Shown piece after piece: positions 3,784 to 38,871 of a stretch of DNA of 64,000 nucleotides. The position numbers and the translations under genes are program-made. Source of the DNA: an uncultured Chlorobiaceae bacterium (GTDB lineage: Bacteria > Bacteroidota > Chlorobiia > Chlorobiales > Chlorobiaceae); the NCBI GenBank assembly GCA_903939765.1, contig CAJAIK010000126.1, forward strand, positions 1 to 64,000, written 5' to 3'. The notes beneath the pieces are model-generated. The model was not told where the DNA came from and searched no databases. It worked only from the letters and a program-made list of their open reading frames with translations. Within the stretch, counting starts at the first letter, position 1. Each line of letters begins with the position of its first letter.

Positions 3784-5145
3784 ATGAAAAAACATACAAA
3801 TAAAAAAGTTGCGGCTGTAACTCTTGGATGTAAACTGAACTATTCGGAAACGTCCGCTATTCTTGATGATTTATGCGGAGAGGGATGGCAACTCTCATCA
3901 ATTGAGGATGGGGCGGATCTTATTGTGATTCATACCTGCGCAGTGACCAAACAGGCTGAACAGAAATGCCGTCAGAAAATCAGGGGGATTATCAAAAAAA
4001 ATCCCGCCAGCCGCATAGCGGTTATTGGCTGTTATTCACAGTTCAATCCAGAGGCGCTCTCTGCAATAGAGGGCATCGATGCCATACTTGGCAGCAACGA
4101 TAAATTTGATATACAGTCATATAATGATGTTACACCTGGCACCATACCGCTTCCTCTTGTCAAGGTCTCACCGGCAGGTACATTTGAGAAAATCTATCCG
4201 GGATATTCACTTCATGCAGCAGACAGTGTGGACAGAACCCGTGCGTTTTTAAAAATCCAGGATGGCTGTGATTACGGATGTTCATACTGTGCGATTCCTC
4301 TTTTCAGAGGCCGATCGCGCTCACTGCCTGCCGCAACTCTTGTCGAGCGGGCCCATCTCCTTGCATTGTCCGGTTACCGGGAGATTGTGCTTACCGGGGT
4401 CAATACGGGCGATTATCGCTCTGGTAGTCTCAAGCTGTGCGATCTTTTACGCAAGCTTGAAGAGGTCAGTGTCAGTCGTATCCGTATCAGTTCCATAGAA
4501 CCTGATATTGTTGATAATGAGCTGATTTCGCTTGTTGCGGGATCAAATAAAATTGCACCTCATTTTCATATTCCCCTTCAAAGCGGATCCGACACTATCC
4601 TCCGGGCCATGCGCCGCCGTTATGATACCGCCCTGTACCGCGACAGGGTACTGCAGTCGGTTCAGCGCATTGCGGATTGCGCCATCGGCGCTGATGTGAT
4701 TGTTGGTTATCCTGGTGAAACAGAGGAGGATTTTATCCTTATGTACCGTTTTCTTGAGCAGCTTCCCCTCGCCTCTCTTCATGTGTTCAGTTGTTCCGTC
4801 CGGCCAGGCACCTCGCTTGCCCGTCAGATTGCAACCGGGGAGCGCAAGCCTGTTGACCCGGTAGAGATAAGGCGTCGCTACAGGGAGCTGACTGAGCTTG
4901 GATTGAGGCTTGAAGCCCATTTCAAGGGTCGTTTTATTGGAAAAGAGTGCAAGGTGCTGTTTGAGCGCTCAAAGCCTGCTGGAAAGGGTATGCTGCAGTG
5001 CAGCGGCTATACGCGCAACTATCTCAAAGTCGCGGTTGCATGCGCCGACCTCCAGCAGCAACAAGCCCTCGTGGGCAAGGAATTGCCGGTATTGATAGAC
5101 TCTCTTGACAAGGATTTGAATTTAAAAGGGATCGTGCTATCTTGA
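3784..5145 (+). CDS. mtaB: tRNA (t6A37) methylthiotransferase MtaB
   Basis: This radical SAM methylthiotransferase converts t6A37 to ms2t6A37 in ANN-decoding tRNAs. The 453 residues show the UPF0004 N-terminal domain with its cluster cysteines (TLGCKLNYSE, HTCAVT, IGCYSQ). The radical SAM CX3CX2C follows in DGCDYGCSYCAIP. A C-terminal TRAM-like region ends the protein. CKLNYSE instead of the MiaB/RimO-type CQMN, together with the overall length, points to the MtaB branch. Sua5 (46916-47872), which makes the t6A precursor, is in the same window but not in the same operon. The apt gene follows almost immediately. Confidence 0.92.
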   Translation: MKKHTNKKVAAVTLGCKLNYSETSAILDDLCGEGWQLSSIEDGADLIVIHTCAVTKQAEQKCRQKIRGIIKKNPASRIAVIGCYSQFNPEALSAIEGIDAILGSNDKFDIQSYNDVTPGTIPLPLVKVSPAGTFEKIYPGYSLHAADSVDRTRAFLKIQDGCDYGCSYCAIPLFRGRSRSLPAATLVERAHLLALSGYREIVLTGVNTGDYRSGSLKLCDLLRKLEEVSVSRIRISSIEPDIVDNELISLVAGSNKIAPHFHIPLQSGSDTILRAMRRRYDTALYRDRVLQSVQRIADCAIGADVIVGYPGETEEDFILMYRFLEQLPLASLHVFSCSVRPGTSLARQIATGERKPVDPVEIRRRYRELTELGLRLEAHFKGRFIGKECKVLFERSKPAGKGMLQCSGYTRNYLKVAVACADLQQQQALVGKELPVLIDSLDKDLNLKGIVLS

Positions 5146-34545: not shown

Positions 34546-35406
34546 ATGGGCCGTGCGGCTGTTTATATTGATGGAGCGAACCTCTTTTTTACACAGCGTC
34601 ATTTGGGGTGGCAGATCGATTTTTCACGTCTGATGGCCTTTTTCATCTCCACCTACGCCTCGGTGCAGGCAAATTACTACGTCCCGGCATCCGAACCGGT
34701 TTCAGAGGAAAATGCCGCATTCACCAGAGTACTGACAGCCCATGGCTACCAAATCACCTCAAAACCGGTTAAAAAGATCGTAAACAAAGAGACCGGAGTG
34801 GTGGTCATGAAAGGCAATCTCGATGTTGAACTGGTTGTTGATGCATTGAGTGCAGCCGATCAGTACGACACCTTTATCCTCTTCAGTGGCGACAGTGATT
34901 TTCTACCCCTGCTGAGGGCTTTAAAAGAGAAGGGAAAAGAGATTATTGTCTATTCCACCCAGGGGCTGAGCGCAAGGGAGTTGCTTGCTGAACCAGGCGT
35001 ATCCTATTGTGATCTTGCTCTTCTCAAAGAGCGGGTTGAGCAGGTCAGGCCGGGAGAGACGCAGCGTGTTGAGGGGCTGGCGGGGGGCAATGAGCCGGAC
35101 TTTTCGCTTCCCCTTCCCGATGTTGGAACAATCTTTACCGGCAGCGTCCTGAAGGTACAGCCGTACGGGATTTTTCTCAGCAACCCCTATCATGTCAAAT
35201 GTCTTCTGCCCCTCGGTTTTCTTGGTATCAGCCGTCATATCGCCGACCTGACAGCGATTGTGCGGATGAGCGACATGTTTGACGTGGTGGTCTTTCACGT
35301 TAATGCTGCTCGTGATGTTGCCGAAATTACCGTCAAACTGGCCGACAAAAAGATGACGGAGGTTTTATCGTCGCGCATAGAGGGGCCAGCGGAGAATTAT
35401 CACTGA
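34546..35406 (+). CDS. NYN-domain protein with a C-terminal S1-like domain
   Basis: A predicted ribonuclease-like protein, 286 residues. The NYN (LabA/DUF88, PIN-like) domain spans about residues 1-165, with acid motifs YIDGANLFFT, KGNLDVELVVDA and LFSGDSDFLPLL. These are the positions expected for a Mg-dependent nuclease site. The C-terminal part (about 190-270, GTIFTGSVLKVQPYGIFL...VKCLLPLGFLG) looks like an S1/OB RNA-binding fold. The fusion suggests an RNA target, by inference. GAGG lies six bases before the ATG; the open frame to 34429 lies in the preceding gene. Its 3' end overlaps convergent cbiO by 7 bases. Confidence 0.78.
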   Translation: MGRAAVYIDGANLFFTQRHLGWQIDFSRLMAFFISTYASVQANYYVPASEPVSEENAAFTRVLTAHGYQITSKPVKKIVNKETGVVVMKGNLDVELVVDALSAADQYDTFILFSGDSDFLPLLRALKEKGKEIIVYSTQGLSARELLAEPGVSYCDLALLKERVEQVRPGETQRVEGLAGGNEPDFSLPLPDVGTIFTGSVLKVQPYGIFLSNPYHVKCLLPLGFLGISRHIADLTAIVRMSDMFDVVVFHVNAARDVAEITVKLADKKMTEVLSSRIEGPAENYH

Positions 35407-36116
35407 AGGCGGAGCGGAAGCTCAAGACTGTTGGCTTCAAGCAGTTCACGGTTGCTGAGAATATCTCTGGCGGGGCCCTCCTCCACAATGCGACCCTTAT
35501 TCATGATGCAGACCCTCTGGCAGGTATCCCACACAAAGTCGAGATCATGAGATACCGTTACTTTTGTTATTCCAAGCCCGTTGATCAGGTTGATCAGCTT
35601 TCTGCGGTTTTTCGGGTCAAGATCGGCTGTAGGTTCATCCATGACAATCACCTCGGGGTTCATGACCAGCACCGTGGCAAAGGAGGCAAACCGCTTCTGA
35701 CCTTGCGACAGGTGTGCAGGAGGCTTGTCGCGCAACTCCCAGAGGTTCAGCTCCCGGAGCACATTTTCGACCAGCGTTGCAATATCAGCGGCCTTCATGC
35801 CGAGATTTTCCGGTCCGAAGGCAACATCGTCATACAGCCTTGCCATAAAAAGCTGGTCATCCGGGTTTTGAAAAAGCAGGCCAACCATTTTATGGATCTG
35901 GTCAAGATTTTTCTTGTTCACCCTTATGCCGCCAATCGAAACGGAACCTTCCATGGGCAGGAAGAAGCCGTTCAGGTGGTTTACGAGCGTCGATTTCCCT
36001 GCACCGTTTGCCCCCACAATACCCACAGAGCTCCCTTCGGCTATGGCAAGGCTCATCTGGTCAATGGCCTTTGTTCCGTCAGGATAGGAAAAACTGAGCC
36101 CTTCGATGGCAATCAT
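35400..36116 (-). CDS. cbiO: ECF nickel/cobalt transporter ATPase (CbiO/NikO)
   Basis: The ATPase of an energy-coupling-factor importer, 238 residues. Walker A is GANGAGKST, the signature is HLSQGQKRFASFA and Walker B is VIVMDEPTADLDPK. The signature starts LSQGQK rather than LSGGQ, a common CbiO variant. It closes an operon of the barrel gene, fused M-N, Q and O. The upstream NikR and the fused MN subunit favour nickel over cobalt, without proof. Confidence 0.88.
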   Translation of the reverse strand: MIAIEGLSFSYPDGTKAIDQMSLAIAEGSSVGIVGANGAGKSTLVNHLNGFFLPMEGSVSIGGIRVNKKNLDQIHKMVGLLFQNPDDQLFMARLYDDVAFGPENLGMKAADIATLVENVLRELNLWELRDKPPAHLSQGQKRFASFATVLVMNPEVIVMDEPTADLDPKNRRKLINLINGLGITKVTVSHDLDFVWDTCQRVCIMNKGRIVEEGPARDILSNRELLEANSLELPLRLQ

Positions 36117-36128
36117 TCCGGTAATAAT

Positions 36129-36899
36129 TTAAAAGATCAGGCGAAGTGCAAGAAAGAGGAGCGACCAGAGAGCGATGGTTTTCCAGTCACCGGGGCTTAT
36201 TTTTTCACCATGCCGAGTTGACATTTGTCCATGGAAACCCCTTGCGGCCATAGCCCGGTAAAGCCTTTCAGCACGGTTTACCGTTCTTAAAAGCAGCGAT
36301 CCGACAAGTGATGCTGTGTTAGAAAACTCTCTTCCCCTCCGGCCAAACGACCGCAGATCCCTTGCTTTCTGCATCGAAAGAGCCTCCTCCTGCAATACGG
36401 AACTGTAGCGGTAAAGCAGCATCAGTTGCGTGACCAGTACTTCCGGGACATGAAACGCTTCAAGGGCGCGGCATATCCGGTAAAAGGGAATGCAGAGGGT
36501 AACCGAAAGCAGGCCTGCCAGAGAGATGATGCTTTTTGCAACAATGACCGCTCCTGAAATCATTCCTCCGCTGAGGGTTACTCCAGAGATTTGCATGACA
36601 GGGCTCCGGTCGAGCAAAAGATTTCCGGAAGCCATAACGAGCACGAAAGGAGAAATCTGCAACAGTCGTTTCGTCACCATTCCAGCGGGACCCTTTGCCA
36701 CGCTCATGAGAAAAAGCGGAAAAGCTCCGAAAGCAATCACTCCCGGAAGGTTGAATTTCGAGATTGAAAGCAGAGATAAAATAAAAAGCGCTGTCACCAG
36801 AAGAGCAGACCGGTCACTTCCGAGGAATGGAGAGGCCTGAGCCGCTGTTTCCTGTCCAGCAAGAGCAGAGCCAATGGACGATACCCGTGACTGCATCAC
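36129..36899 (-). CDS. cbiQ: ECF transporter transmembrane protein (CbiQ/NikQ)
   Basis: The T component that joins ATPase and substrate-binding subunit, 256 residues with about five to six membrane segments. The coupling helices are recognisable: ALSMQKARDLRSFG and RAERLYRAMAARGFHG, whose Ala-Arg-Gly motif docks on CbiO. The first codons overlap the end of the M-N gene by 4 bases. Twelve bases separate it from cbiO. Confidence 0.88.
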   Translation of the reverse strand: MMQSRVSSIGSALAGQETAAQASPFLGSDRSALLVTALFILSLLSISKFNLPGVIAFGAFPLFLMSVAKGPAGMVTKRLLQISPFVLVMASGNLLLDRSPVMQISGVTLSGGMISGAVIVAKSIISLAGLLSVTLCIPFYRICRALEAFHVPEVLVTQLMLLYRYSSVLQEEALSMQKARDLRSFGRRGREFSNTASLVGSLLLRTVNRAERLYRAMAARGFHGQMSTRHGEKISPGDWKTIALWSLLFLALRLIF

Positions 36900-37909
36900 A
36901 AGTGTTTTGGTTCGTTTCGTTTTCTGCCCAGTAAAAGACCGGCAGTTCCGGCAACAGCAAGGACAGAAAGAGTGCCGACGATGCCTGACAAACTGGTGCC
37001 GGCATTGACAGGTGATTCCGGGTTTGCGAGGGATTCCGGGGCAGATTTGAAGCCGTAATCGGGAAGAAATGCCATCTTCTGCTGAAAAGCTGCAAGTGCT
37101 TCATGCACAGGATTGCCTGCCGGGCTGAACTCAGCGGAGCCCGTCACCTTCTTAATCGACCATTCAAGGCCGTCAGGTTGCGAAGAGGCAAACCACGATA
37201 CCACGCTTCCGACGAGGAGTGCCAGAACGGCAAACAGTGCAAAAGTGAAACGGGGACGAACAGATGATTTGGCAGGAACGAGCAGTGCCGGATCTGTTCG
37301 TGCAACGAAAGCAAGTACTCCCCAGGTAACCAATCCCTCAATAATCCCGATGGCAAGATGGACTGGCAGCATGAAAAGAACAAAGGTGCTGAACGGCAAC
37401 TCAGTTATACCAGAAACGAGCGTTTCAAAAACAACAAAAAATGCCCCCATCAAGAGTCCTGCTGTTGCGGCCATCATGCTGCCAGCCGCAAGTTTTCCCG
37501 GAGTTGGAGCATTACCGGCAATAATCCGATAGATGAAAGGGTAAGCAATAAATGCAGGAAAAAATGCCAGGTTGAAAATATTGCAGCCCAGAGCGAGCAG
37601 TCCGCCATCAGCGAAAAAAAGGCACTGAATAATAAGCACCGAGGCAAGTGTGATAAATGCCCGGTAAGGGCCGAGCAATACGGTAAGGAGAAGCCCACCG
37701 CCAAGGTGTCCGCTTGAACCGGTGCCGGGGATGCTGAAGTTGATCATCTGCGCAGCAAAAACAAAAGCTCCAAGCACACCCATGAGCGGCGTTTTCATCA
37801 CATCATGCTCCTCAGTGATCTTTTTTGCCGAATAGCCGATAAGCGCACCGCTTGCAATCCAGAATGCGCCGCCCGTAACCGGTGACAAAAGTGCATCAGC
37901 CATATGCAT
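36896..37909 (-). CDS. fused substrate-specific ECF component CbiM-CbiN (NikMN type)
   Basis: The metal-binding S component, 337 residues. The N-terminal MHMADALLSPVTGGAFW with His2 matches the CbiM/NikM rule that an N-terminal Met-His forms the metal site. About seven membrane segments follow, then a periplasmic PDGLE domain (QPDGLEWSIKKVTG, near residue 240) and a final membrane helix, which is the CbiN/NikN role. Fusion of M and N in one chain is a common nickel variant. A copy of the dispersed G-rich element lies 19 bases upstream of the start codon. Confidence 0.88.
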   Translation of the reverse strand: MHMADALLSPVTGGAFWIASGALIGYSAKKITEEHDVMKTPLMGVLGAFVFAAQMINFSIPGTGSSGHLGGGLLLTVLLGPYRAFITLASVLIIQCLFFADGGLLALGCNIFNLAFFPAFIAYPFIYRIIAGNAPTPGKLAAGSMMAATAGLLMGAFFVVFETLVSGITELPFSTFVLFMLPVHLAIGIIEGLVTWGVLAFVARTDPALLVPAKSSVRPRFTFALFAVLALLVGSVVSWFASSQPDGLEWSIKKVTGSAEFSPAGNPVHEALAAFQQKMAFLPDYGFKSAPESLANPESPVNAGTSLSGIVGTLSVLAVAGTAGLLLGRKRNEPKHL

Positions 37910-37993: not shown

Positions 37994-38785
37994 TTAAAAC
38001 CGGGCGGCAAGCCCGGCAAGAAAAGTTGTGTCAGTTTCAGTTTCATTGAGTCCGCATTTCAGGCCAAGATCGATATCGAAGTTTTCATCAAGGCTATAGA
38101 TCACTCCTCCGATGAGAAAAACAGGGTGAACCTCCGATGTTTTATCCTCATTGGTTTCAACACCGATGTTTGCGACAGAACGGATGTTGCCGGTCAGGTT
38201 GATTTCGGCAGCCAGCGATGCATGCCAGATATCGTTTCTTGCACTCTTATTGTTCTCTTCGATGCCATAGTTATTGGTGCGGTAACCCAGATTGCAGTGC
38301 ACGGCTCCGAGCCTGCCTTCATGGGTTGCAATCAATGTCATCCCTCCTCTCAGCGCTCCGCTTCCAAGCCCCTTGTGCTCATCCCCGGAAGGTATTGAAA
38401 GGCCCGGTTTCAGCGCAAGGCTCATACCCTCCTCTTCAGCTTCGACCAATCGCCATTTCAGTTCAATTCCCGTATCACCGAAACCACTTTCGTCAGCTAC
38501 AGTCACGCCCCCTTCCCTGACCGTGTACCACTGCAGCGGCATGCCCACAATGAGGTCGATGTTGTCCGAAATTCCATACGACAGAGCAAACCCTGTCTCG
38601 CCACCTCTTTCTTGTACCGATAATCCATCAGCTTGTTTTTTATCCGTGGAGTATTCGCTGTTTATTTCAATCTGAAATTTCCCTTTTCCCAAGGTACCAG
38701 CATCATCAGTGATGAGCGGATGAGCCGCATAAGCGTTTGTGGAGAAAAACAGGGTGAACAAGAGAAAGAGATTTTTTTTCAGCAT
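37994..38785 (-). CDS. outer-membrane barrel protein (MetA-pathway-like)
   Basis: The 263-residue protein has a signal peptide (MLKKNLFLLFTLFFSTNAYA), a beta-strand-rich body and a terminal Phe (LAGLAARF), as expected of an outer-membrane barrel. Its opening HPLITDDAGTLGKGKFQIEI is typical of the 'MetA-pathway of phenol degradation' family, a loosely named transporter-like group. It is the first gene of the nickel/cobalt operon and lies behind a NikR-like operator. That suggests it passes metal or a metal chelate through the outer membrane (inference). Confidence 0.75.
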   Translation of the reverse strand: MLKKNLFLLFTLFFSTNAYAAHPLITDDAGTLGKGKFQIEINSEYSTDKKQADGLSVQERGGETGFALSYGISDNIDLIVGMPLQWYTVREGGVTVADESGFGDTGIELKWRLVEAEEEGMSLALKPGLSIPSGDEHKGLGSGALRGGMTLIATHEGRLGAVHCNLGYRTNNYGIEENNKSARNDIWHASLAAEINLTGNIRSVANIGVETNEDKTSEVHPVFLIGGVIYSLDENFDIDLGLKCGLNETETDTTFLAGLAARF

Positions 38786-38835: not shown

Positions 38836-38871
38836 TAGCACTAAAATAATAAATGTGCTACCGTTAGTCAA
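38836..38871 (-). promoter_or_regulatory. sigma70 promoter overlapped by a NikR-like operator
   Basis: Minus-strand -35 TTGACT (38866-38871), a 17-base spacer and -10 TATTTT (38843-38848) face the barrel gene. The inverted repeat TAGCAC-N13-GTGCTA (38836-38860) covers the -10 and most of the spacer. NikR sites in other bacteria are similar dyads of 6-7 base arms with 13-16 bases between them. The nikR gene itself ends 43 bases upstream of the -35. Confidence 0.65.

Follow-up and report, generated by a model that had tools for sequence, protein, structure and literature searches.

When supply is low, the passage of bare divalent metals across the outer membrane is, to our knowledge, poorly understood, the routes described being TonB-dependent receptors or general porins. 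The question is raised for nickel by one locus in the window (the whole stretch of 64,000 nucleotides analyzed here), where the gene of an outer-membrane beta-barrel lies between nikR and the genes of an ECF-type importer. The barrel belongs to PF13557/COG4313; COG4313 is widespread, its function is mostly not known and its name comes from phenol degradation. The promoter of barrel and importer appears to be controlled by a nickel-sensing repressor, and the arguments below concern that control and what it implies for the barrel.

The nik operon and its promoter

On the minus strand of the window, nikR, the barrel gene, nikMN, nikQ and nikO follow one after another (Table 1). The start of nikMN lies 84 bp downstream of the barrel gene, and the M(N), Q and O components of a NikMNQO/CbiMNQO ECF importer are all in one operon. 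A preliminary description of this DNA, made from its letters, had placed nikR directly upstream and had read a minus-strand promoter, TTGACT-17-TATTTT, covered by TAGCAC-N13-GTGCTA; gene, promoter and dyad were all recovered as described. The 36-base interval that it gave (38836-38871) contains both dyad and promoter, the dyad by itself occupying only 38836-38860. Since the promoter runs from 38871 to 38843, its spacer and −10 element are filled by the dyad.

Table 1. Features of the operator-promoter region and the operon (positions in the window)
Feature	Position	Strand	Basis or remark
NikR-type operator dyad TAGCAC-N13-GTGCTA	38836..38860		exact match; kept in 39/41 relatives
sigma70-type promoter TTGACT-17-TATTTT, overlapped by the dyad	38843..38871	-	same 17-bp spacing in relatives
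nikR, 135 aa	38914..39321	-	RHH_1 + NikR_C
outer-membrane beta-barrel gene, 263 aa	37994..38785	-	PF13557/COG4313; signal peptide, then AHPLITDD
mature N-terminal motif AHPLITDD (H/M, then two Asp)	38702..38725	-	alignment; plug position by analogy (PMC4493636)
nikMN (CbiM + PDGLE), substrate-binding membrane component of ECF-type importer	36896..37909	-	domain matches
nikQ, T component; overlaps nikMN end	36129..36899	-	PF02361
nikO, ATPase	35400..36116	-	profile matches

The dyad (TAGCACTAAAATAATAAATGTGCTA, an exact match to the pattern; GTAGCAC-N13-GTGCTAT with flanks when read on the minus strand) was the single exact match to TAGCAC-N13-GTGCTA in the 64-kb window, against none in 100 dinucleotide-preserving shuffles. 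The whole 2.98-Mb genome holds two copies, the second on another contig. Promoter- and terminator-like matches inside the operon were no commoner than in shuffles.

The window's NikR matched RHH_1 and NikR_C (95 bits) and the NCBIfam NikR equivalog (148 bits; cut-off 105), and a search of the window's genome found nikR in one copy only. We take its nickel ligands to be H78, H89, H91 and C97, by reference to E. coli NikR; the HVH and C of the nickel site are also visible in the alignment to PDB 2bj1. Judged on its RHH and NikR_C domains and its three-His/one-Cys nickel site, the protein is a member of the NikR family. The importer of the window did not reach the NCBIfam equivalog cut-offs for CbiM, and its nickel specificity thus rests on NikR and context.

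Conservation and identity of the operator

To place the operator among relatives, 98 genomes of the order were searched, with the barrel found in 60 and nikR in 58, and 76 barrel loci were retrieved. A nickel-type M(N)QO importer follows the barrel in 41 of these loci, which are mutually related, so that counts among them are not counts of independent events. In 39 of the 41 (Chlorobiaceae), a dyad within 0-2 mismatches of GTRRCAC-N13-GTGYYAY lies 47-117 bp upstream of the barrel gene, one (L098) having a perfect GTAACAC-N13-GTGTTAC. Promoter spacing is fixed at 17 bp throughout these 39 relatives, all of which have a −10 element of the form TAnnnT (TATTTT in 33), and about 37 have a −35 TTG (column frequencies T 100%, T 97%, G 95%). 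A Chlorobium relative (L093:2540-2720) carries the half-sites swapped, as GTGTTAC-N13-GTAGCAC, which is the Geobacter-type NikR orientation; going by this site, both operator orientations occur within one family. The sole siteless locus of the 41 (L153, genome G084) has no dyad, and nikR is absent from the locus and from the genome search. The preliminary description had let its reading stand or fall with the recurrence in other Chlorobi of the dyad and of the link between barrel and nickel transport: the dyad was kept in 39 loci, swapped in one and lost together with nikR in one, and a nickel-type ECF importer was linked to the barrel in all 41.

In all 38 loci measured, the transcription unit opens with the barrel gene, which lies on the strand of nikMN and precedes it by 26-235 bp. 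The order sudA-nikR-barrel-nikMN-nikQ-nikO was seen in seven Chlorobiaceae contigs (sudB also in view in six; we assigned the names sudA and sudB from translations), and the upstream alignment of the seven shows GTRRCAC-N13-GTGYYAY with a strongly conserved AT spacer. The dyad also lies directly upstream of nikM at barrel-less loci (L155-L158, L196, L206, L207). Exact matches to GTRRCAC-N13-GTGYYAY numbered 34 in the 98 genomes, and 27 of them were directly upstream of a barrel gene or nikM.

The NikR motif of deltaproteobacteria reads GTGTTAC-[N13/14]-GTAACAC (Rodionov et al. 2004, PMC545781), and a reversed form, GTAACAC-[N13/14]-GTGTTAC, is present in D. psychrophila and before nikK in D. 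vulgaris (PMC545781). The Chlorobi dyad has the half-sites and 13-bp spacer of the reversed type, in genomes with nikR and upstream of nickel transport genes; it is the reversed form of the deltaproteobacterial motif (PMC545781). The preliminary description had cited no NikR motif.

By themselves, these twelve letters do not single out NikR sites, because the CIRCE element, TTAGCACTC-N9-GAGTGCTAA (PMC545781), holds an exact TAGCAC-N13-GTGCTA, and a scan of Chlorobi for the letters alone picks up HrcA sites together with those of NikR. The genome's other exact match, at G000:C23:54053-54077 (L001), is just such a CIRCE (HrcA) element. It is nonetheless hardly conceivable that the dyad of the window is itself a heat-shock operator: the outer letters are common to both, but the halves in the window are ATAGCACTA and ATGTGCTAC, the inner CTC/GAG of CIRCE is absent there and in the relatives, the half-sites of relatives vary to GTAACAC/GTGGCAC as those of NikR do, and the dyad disappears together with nikR. 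A CIRCE/HrcA identity was rejected on the differing inner letters and the variation of half-sites among relatives. From gene order and operator conservation we hold it very probable that NikR regulates the barrel and that the barrel is cotranscribed with the nickel importer.

A second NikR-like dyad, GTAACAC-N13-GTGTTAT, lies at G000:C29:6441-6467 (L016:2442-2468), just before a gene whose translation resembles TspO; by chance, a genome should hold about one site of this kind. In several genomes the nik operon is present while the barrel gene is missing or broken. At L151 and L154 (G047 and G049) and on G076:C98, split matches or an internal stop suggest a broken barrel gene; at L151 and L154 the nik operon and operator remain, and the barrel therefore seems dispensable there.

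The barrel protein and its partners at other metal loci

The barrel matched PF13557 over nearly the whole protein (E = 1e-22, 81.8 bits; cut-off 22). PF13557 was its only Pfam match, and the 263-aa sequence contained no plug or TonB-receptor domain, which sets it apart from TonB-dependent receptors. Its structure model is an all-beta barrel (pLDDT 74.6, pTM 0.71) with 13 strand segments listed, where the family's channel has 12 strands and an N-terminal plug, and with low confidence at the N-terminus, and a Foldseek search with this model returned 5o65 and 4rl8 (E 1e-8 to 1e-9), the nearest solved folds being FapF and the COG4313 channel Pput2725 (4rl8). A sequence profile search of the PDB with the barrel alignment gave no true match, which leaves the model as the basis for the link by fold. 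In the alignment, the most conserved part of the subfamily is the mature N-terminal segment, mostly A-H/M-P-L-x-T-D-D-T-G-T-Q-G; conservation is thus strongest where model confidence is lowest. Pput2725, the one solved COG4313 channel, showed weak ion conductance and bound detergent (PMC4493636). Its lumen is plugged by the N-terminal ~14 residues except for a narrow path, electronegative at the mouth, that lets ions through, and its authors favor hydrophobic substrates moving by lateral diffusion while not excluding transport into the periplasm (PMC4493636). By analogy, we suggest that His/Met and two Asp at this position would suit a metal-selective plug.

The residue after the signal-peptide Ala is His or Met, with Tyr in a few cobalt-linked barrels and Ala/Gly in some orphan barrels. 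On plasmids, homologues were found on three Burkholderia replicons only (unannotated, ~34% identity), where none of the four importer types lies beside the barrel homologue and one neighbor is a cation P-type ATPase.

The preliminary description had confined the barrel to nickel. The linkage to a nickel importer stands, but that scope proved too narrow, with sister barrels at cobalt, ferrous-iron and Nramp loci: across the order, a divalent-metal importer adjoins the barrel in 58 of 76 loci, and no importer stands beside the other 18. Ten Co-type loci read cobalamin riboswitch - barrel - cbiM - (cbiN) - cbiQ - cbiO - tetrapyrrole methylase - cbiK, the importer cluster after the barrel being cbiM(N)QO-cbiL-cbiK. 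The riboswitch (93-103 bits) is directly upstream of the barrel in all ten, and their barrels form one group on the barrel tree (100% support). At four iron loci the order is barrel - feoA - feoA - feoB - feoC (L128, L148, L119 and L122; genomes G011, G077, G020 and G016), and at L128 and L148 the cluster includes a gene for a DtxR-type repressor with a FeoA domain. The motif TTATTTRGAYWAATTnnAAAT, derived from these same four loci, lies upstream of the barrel in all four and nowhere else in 1.41 Mb of retrieved loci, and is possibly the operator of the DtxR-type repressor. In three further loci the barrel lies 97-216 bp after Nramp. An Rfam scan of the iron, Nramp and second nickel-type loci returned no match.

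Evidence from outside the Chlorobi rests on L013, L014 and L161. In Nitrospira (L013), fur, a Fur-type box and feoB surround the barrel; in Geobacteraceae (L014) the barrel occurs with feoB; and a distant Bacteroidota locus reads feoB - TonB receptor - barrel. On the barrel tree, metal setting requires only 12 changes, against a mean of 38 after shuffling, with a single origin for cobalt and at least three changes for iron. As read from this tree, the barrel was probably re-paired with importers more than once.

Three observations concern individual loci. In the barrel-feo operon, a His-rich stretch is inserted in the first FeoA (L122:4738-5019; L119 about 4740-5005). The window's genome has a second barrel (L150, G000:C66:19154-19876) in a clade that otherwise adjoins Nramp; a tail-specific protease gene is nearby, and none of the four importer types is beside it. 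At L145 and L146, two barrels stand beside an export cluster of MacB-HlyD-TolC type, an exception to the importer pattern.

Proposed role of the barrel and comparison with known systems

Taken as a whole, the locus reads most plausibly (probability roughly 0.6) as a nickel-repressed nickel-acquisition operon in which the barrel would be the outer-membrane route for Ni(II), its subfamily being reused with other importers. The proposed unit comprises operator/promoter, barrel, nikMN, nikQ and nikO, and nikR, the gene of its repressor, immediately precedes it. With enough nickel in the cytoplasm, Ni-NikR would occupy the 25-27 bp dyad and block RNA polymerase, because the half-sites flank the −10 element and lie inside the promoter spacer; the overlap of dyad and −10 predicts repression by occlusion. 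When nickel is scarce, barrel and ECF importer would be made together, and Ni(II), free or as a small complex, would cross the outer membrane via the barrel, possibly past an N-terminal plug bearing His/Met and two Asp, after which NikMNQO would move it across the inner membrane. The subfamily would likewise serve Cbi (cobalt), FeoB (ferrous iron) and Nramp, the first two behind a fitting metal or cofactor switch. NikR binding, repression, metal-ion conductance by the barrel and the role of the plug are steps that we infer. Since the nik operon is found in several genomes with no barrel or a broken one, the barrel would not be essential.

The repeated pairing with ion importers is what makes a metal entry channel the best explanation of the barrel, and we consider it somewhat probable that divalent metals enter through it across the outer membrane, independently of TonB, and that it is controlled by the metal regulator of the importer with which it is paired. 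The broader proposition is that this PF13557/COG4313 subfamily generally admits divalent transition metals through the outer membrane without TonB, having been copied and re-wired for each inner-membrane importer: to a NikR site where that importer is NikMNQO, to a cobalamin riboswitch where it is CbiMNQO and to DtxR- or Fur-type control where it is FeoB, with Nramp as the fourth partner. To us this seems an even chance.

Two other accounts of the barrel deserve weighing. Its cargo might be a metal chelate or an amphipathic ligand (a metallophore or metal-thiolate) taken in through a lateral opening instead of bare ions, with the operator reading still correct. The functional COG4313 relatives SphA and TcpY and the detergent-bound structure do point to hydrophobic cargo (PMC4493636), but its partners Nik/CbiMNQO, FeoB and Nramp transport metals as bare ions, the barrel is common to four unrelated ion importers, and no metallophore synthesis genes were seen among the neighbor families examined, which together make chelate import unlikely. 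It is rather improbable, too, that the barrel merely travels as a passenger in metal operons, having acquired their regulation in this way while its own role is structural or lies in efflux or stress. Hitchhiking would hardly produce independent pairings with four unrelated importers in three phyla, and the pairing extends to NikR sites, cobalamin riboswitches and the DtxR-linked motif or Fur; repressible control by metal starvation, moreover, fits import and not efflux. Such a passenger would nevertheless account for the 18 loci with no importer neighbor, for barrels near MacB-HlyD-TolC export genes or a heavy-metal P-type ATPase, and for nik operons that do without a barrel.

Within a single bacterial family, COG4313 members are thus tied to importers of nickel, cobalt and iron and to Nramp, either by the regulator of the metal or by gene neighborhood. 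The matched paralogues offer a direct hypothesis for comparing metal selectivity, and TAGCAC-N13-GTGCTA over a 17-spaced promoter is usable as an annotation rule for NikR sites in Chlorobi. The literature searched held no report connecting PF13557 with nickel and no study of a Chlorobi NikR regulon; the main comparative study of nickel and cobalt and the supplements of riboswitch surveys, which lay outside its scope, may note parts of this. The barrel would be a regulator-matched outer-membrane partner of a metal importer, but one drawn from a small non-TonB family that this literature had not tied to metals.

The closest regulatory parallel is the NikR regulon of deltaproteobacteria, which shares NikR, a nikMNQO-type importer and a 27-bp dyad with a 13-bp spacer (PMC545781). 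In Chlorobi, by contrast, G predominates at the center of the half-site (TAGCAC/GTGCTA), a whole family has the reversed orientation as a rule, and the first gene of the operon encodes an outer-membrane barrel. In Helicobacter pylori, the outer-membrane proteins FecA3 and FrpB4 are repressed by NikR and have been proposed to admit nickel (cited in PMC11247825). They resemble the barrel in control and proposed function; however, they are TonB-dependent receptors, whereas the protein of the window is a 263-residue barrel with no match to a plug or TonB-receptor domain. Hypothetical porins under Fur control stand beside feoAB in Geobacter and Desulfuromonas (psp, PF07396, and an OprB-type protein in X-feoA-feoA-feoB2), and passage of ferrous iron has been proposed for them (PMC545781). 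As at the iron loci described here, a barrel accompanies feoA-feoA-feoB under an iron regulator, although those porins belong to other barrel families and no nickel or cobalt counterparts were described there (PMC545781). Pput2725 (PDB 4rl8), SphA and TcpY (PMC4493636) share with the barrel its Pfam family, the modeled barrel fold and an N-terminal segment before the first strand; their cargo is known or assumed to be hydrophobic, whereas the Chlorobi subfamily is tied to metal importers and metal switches.
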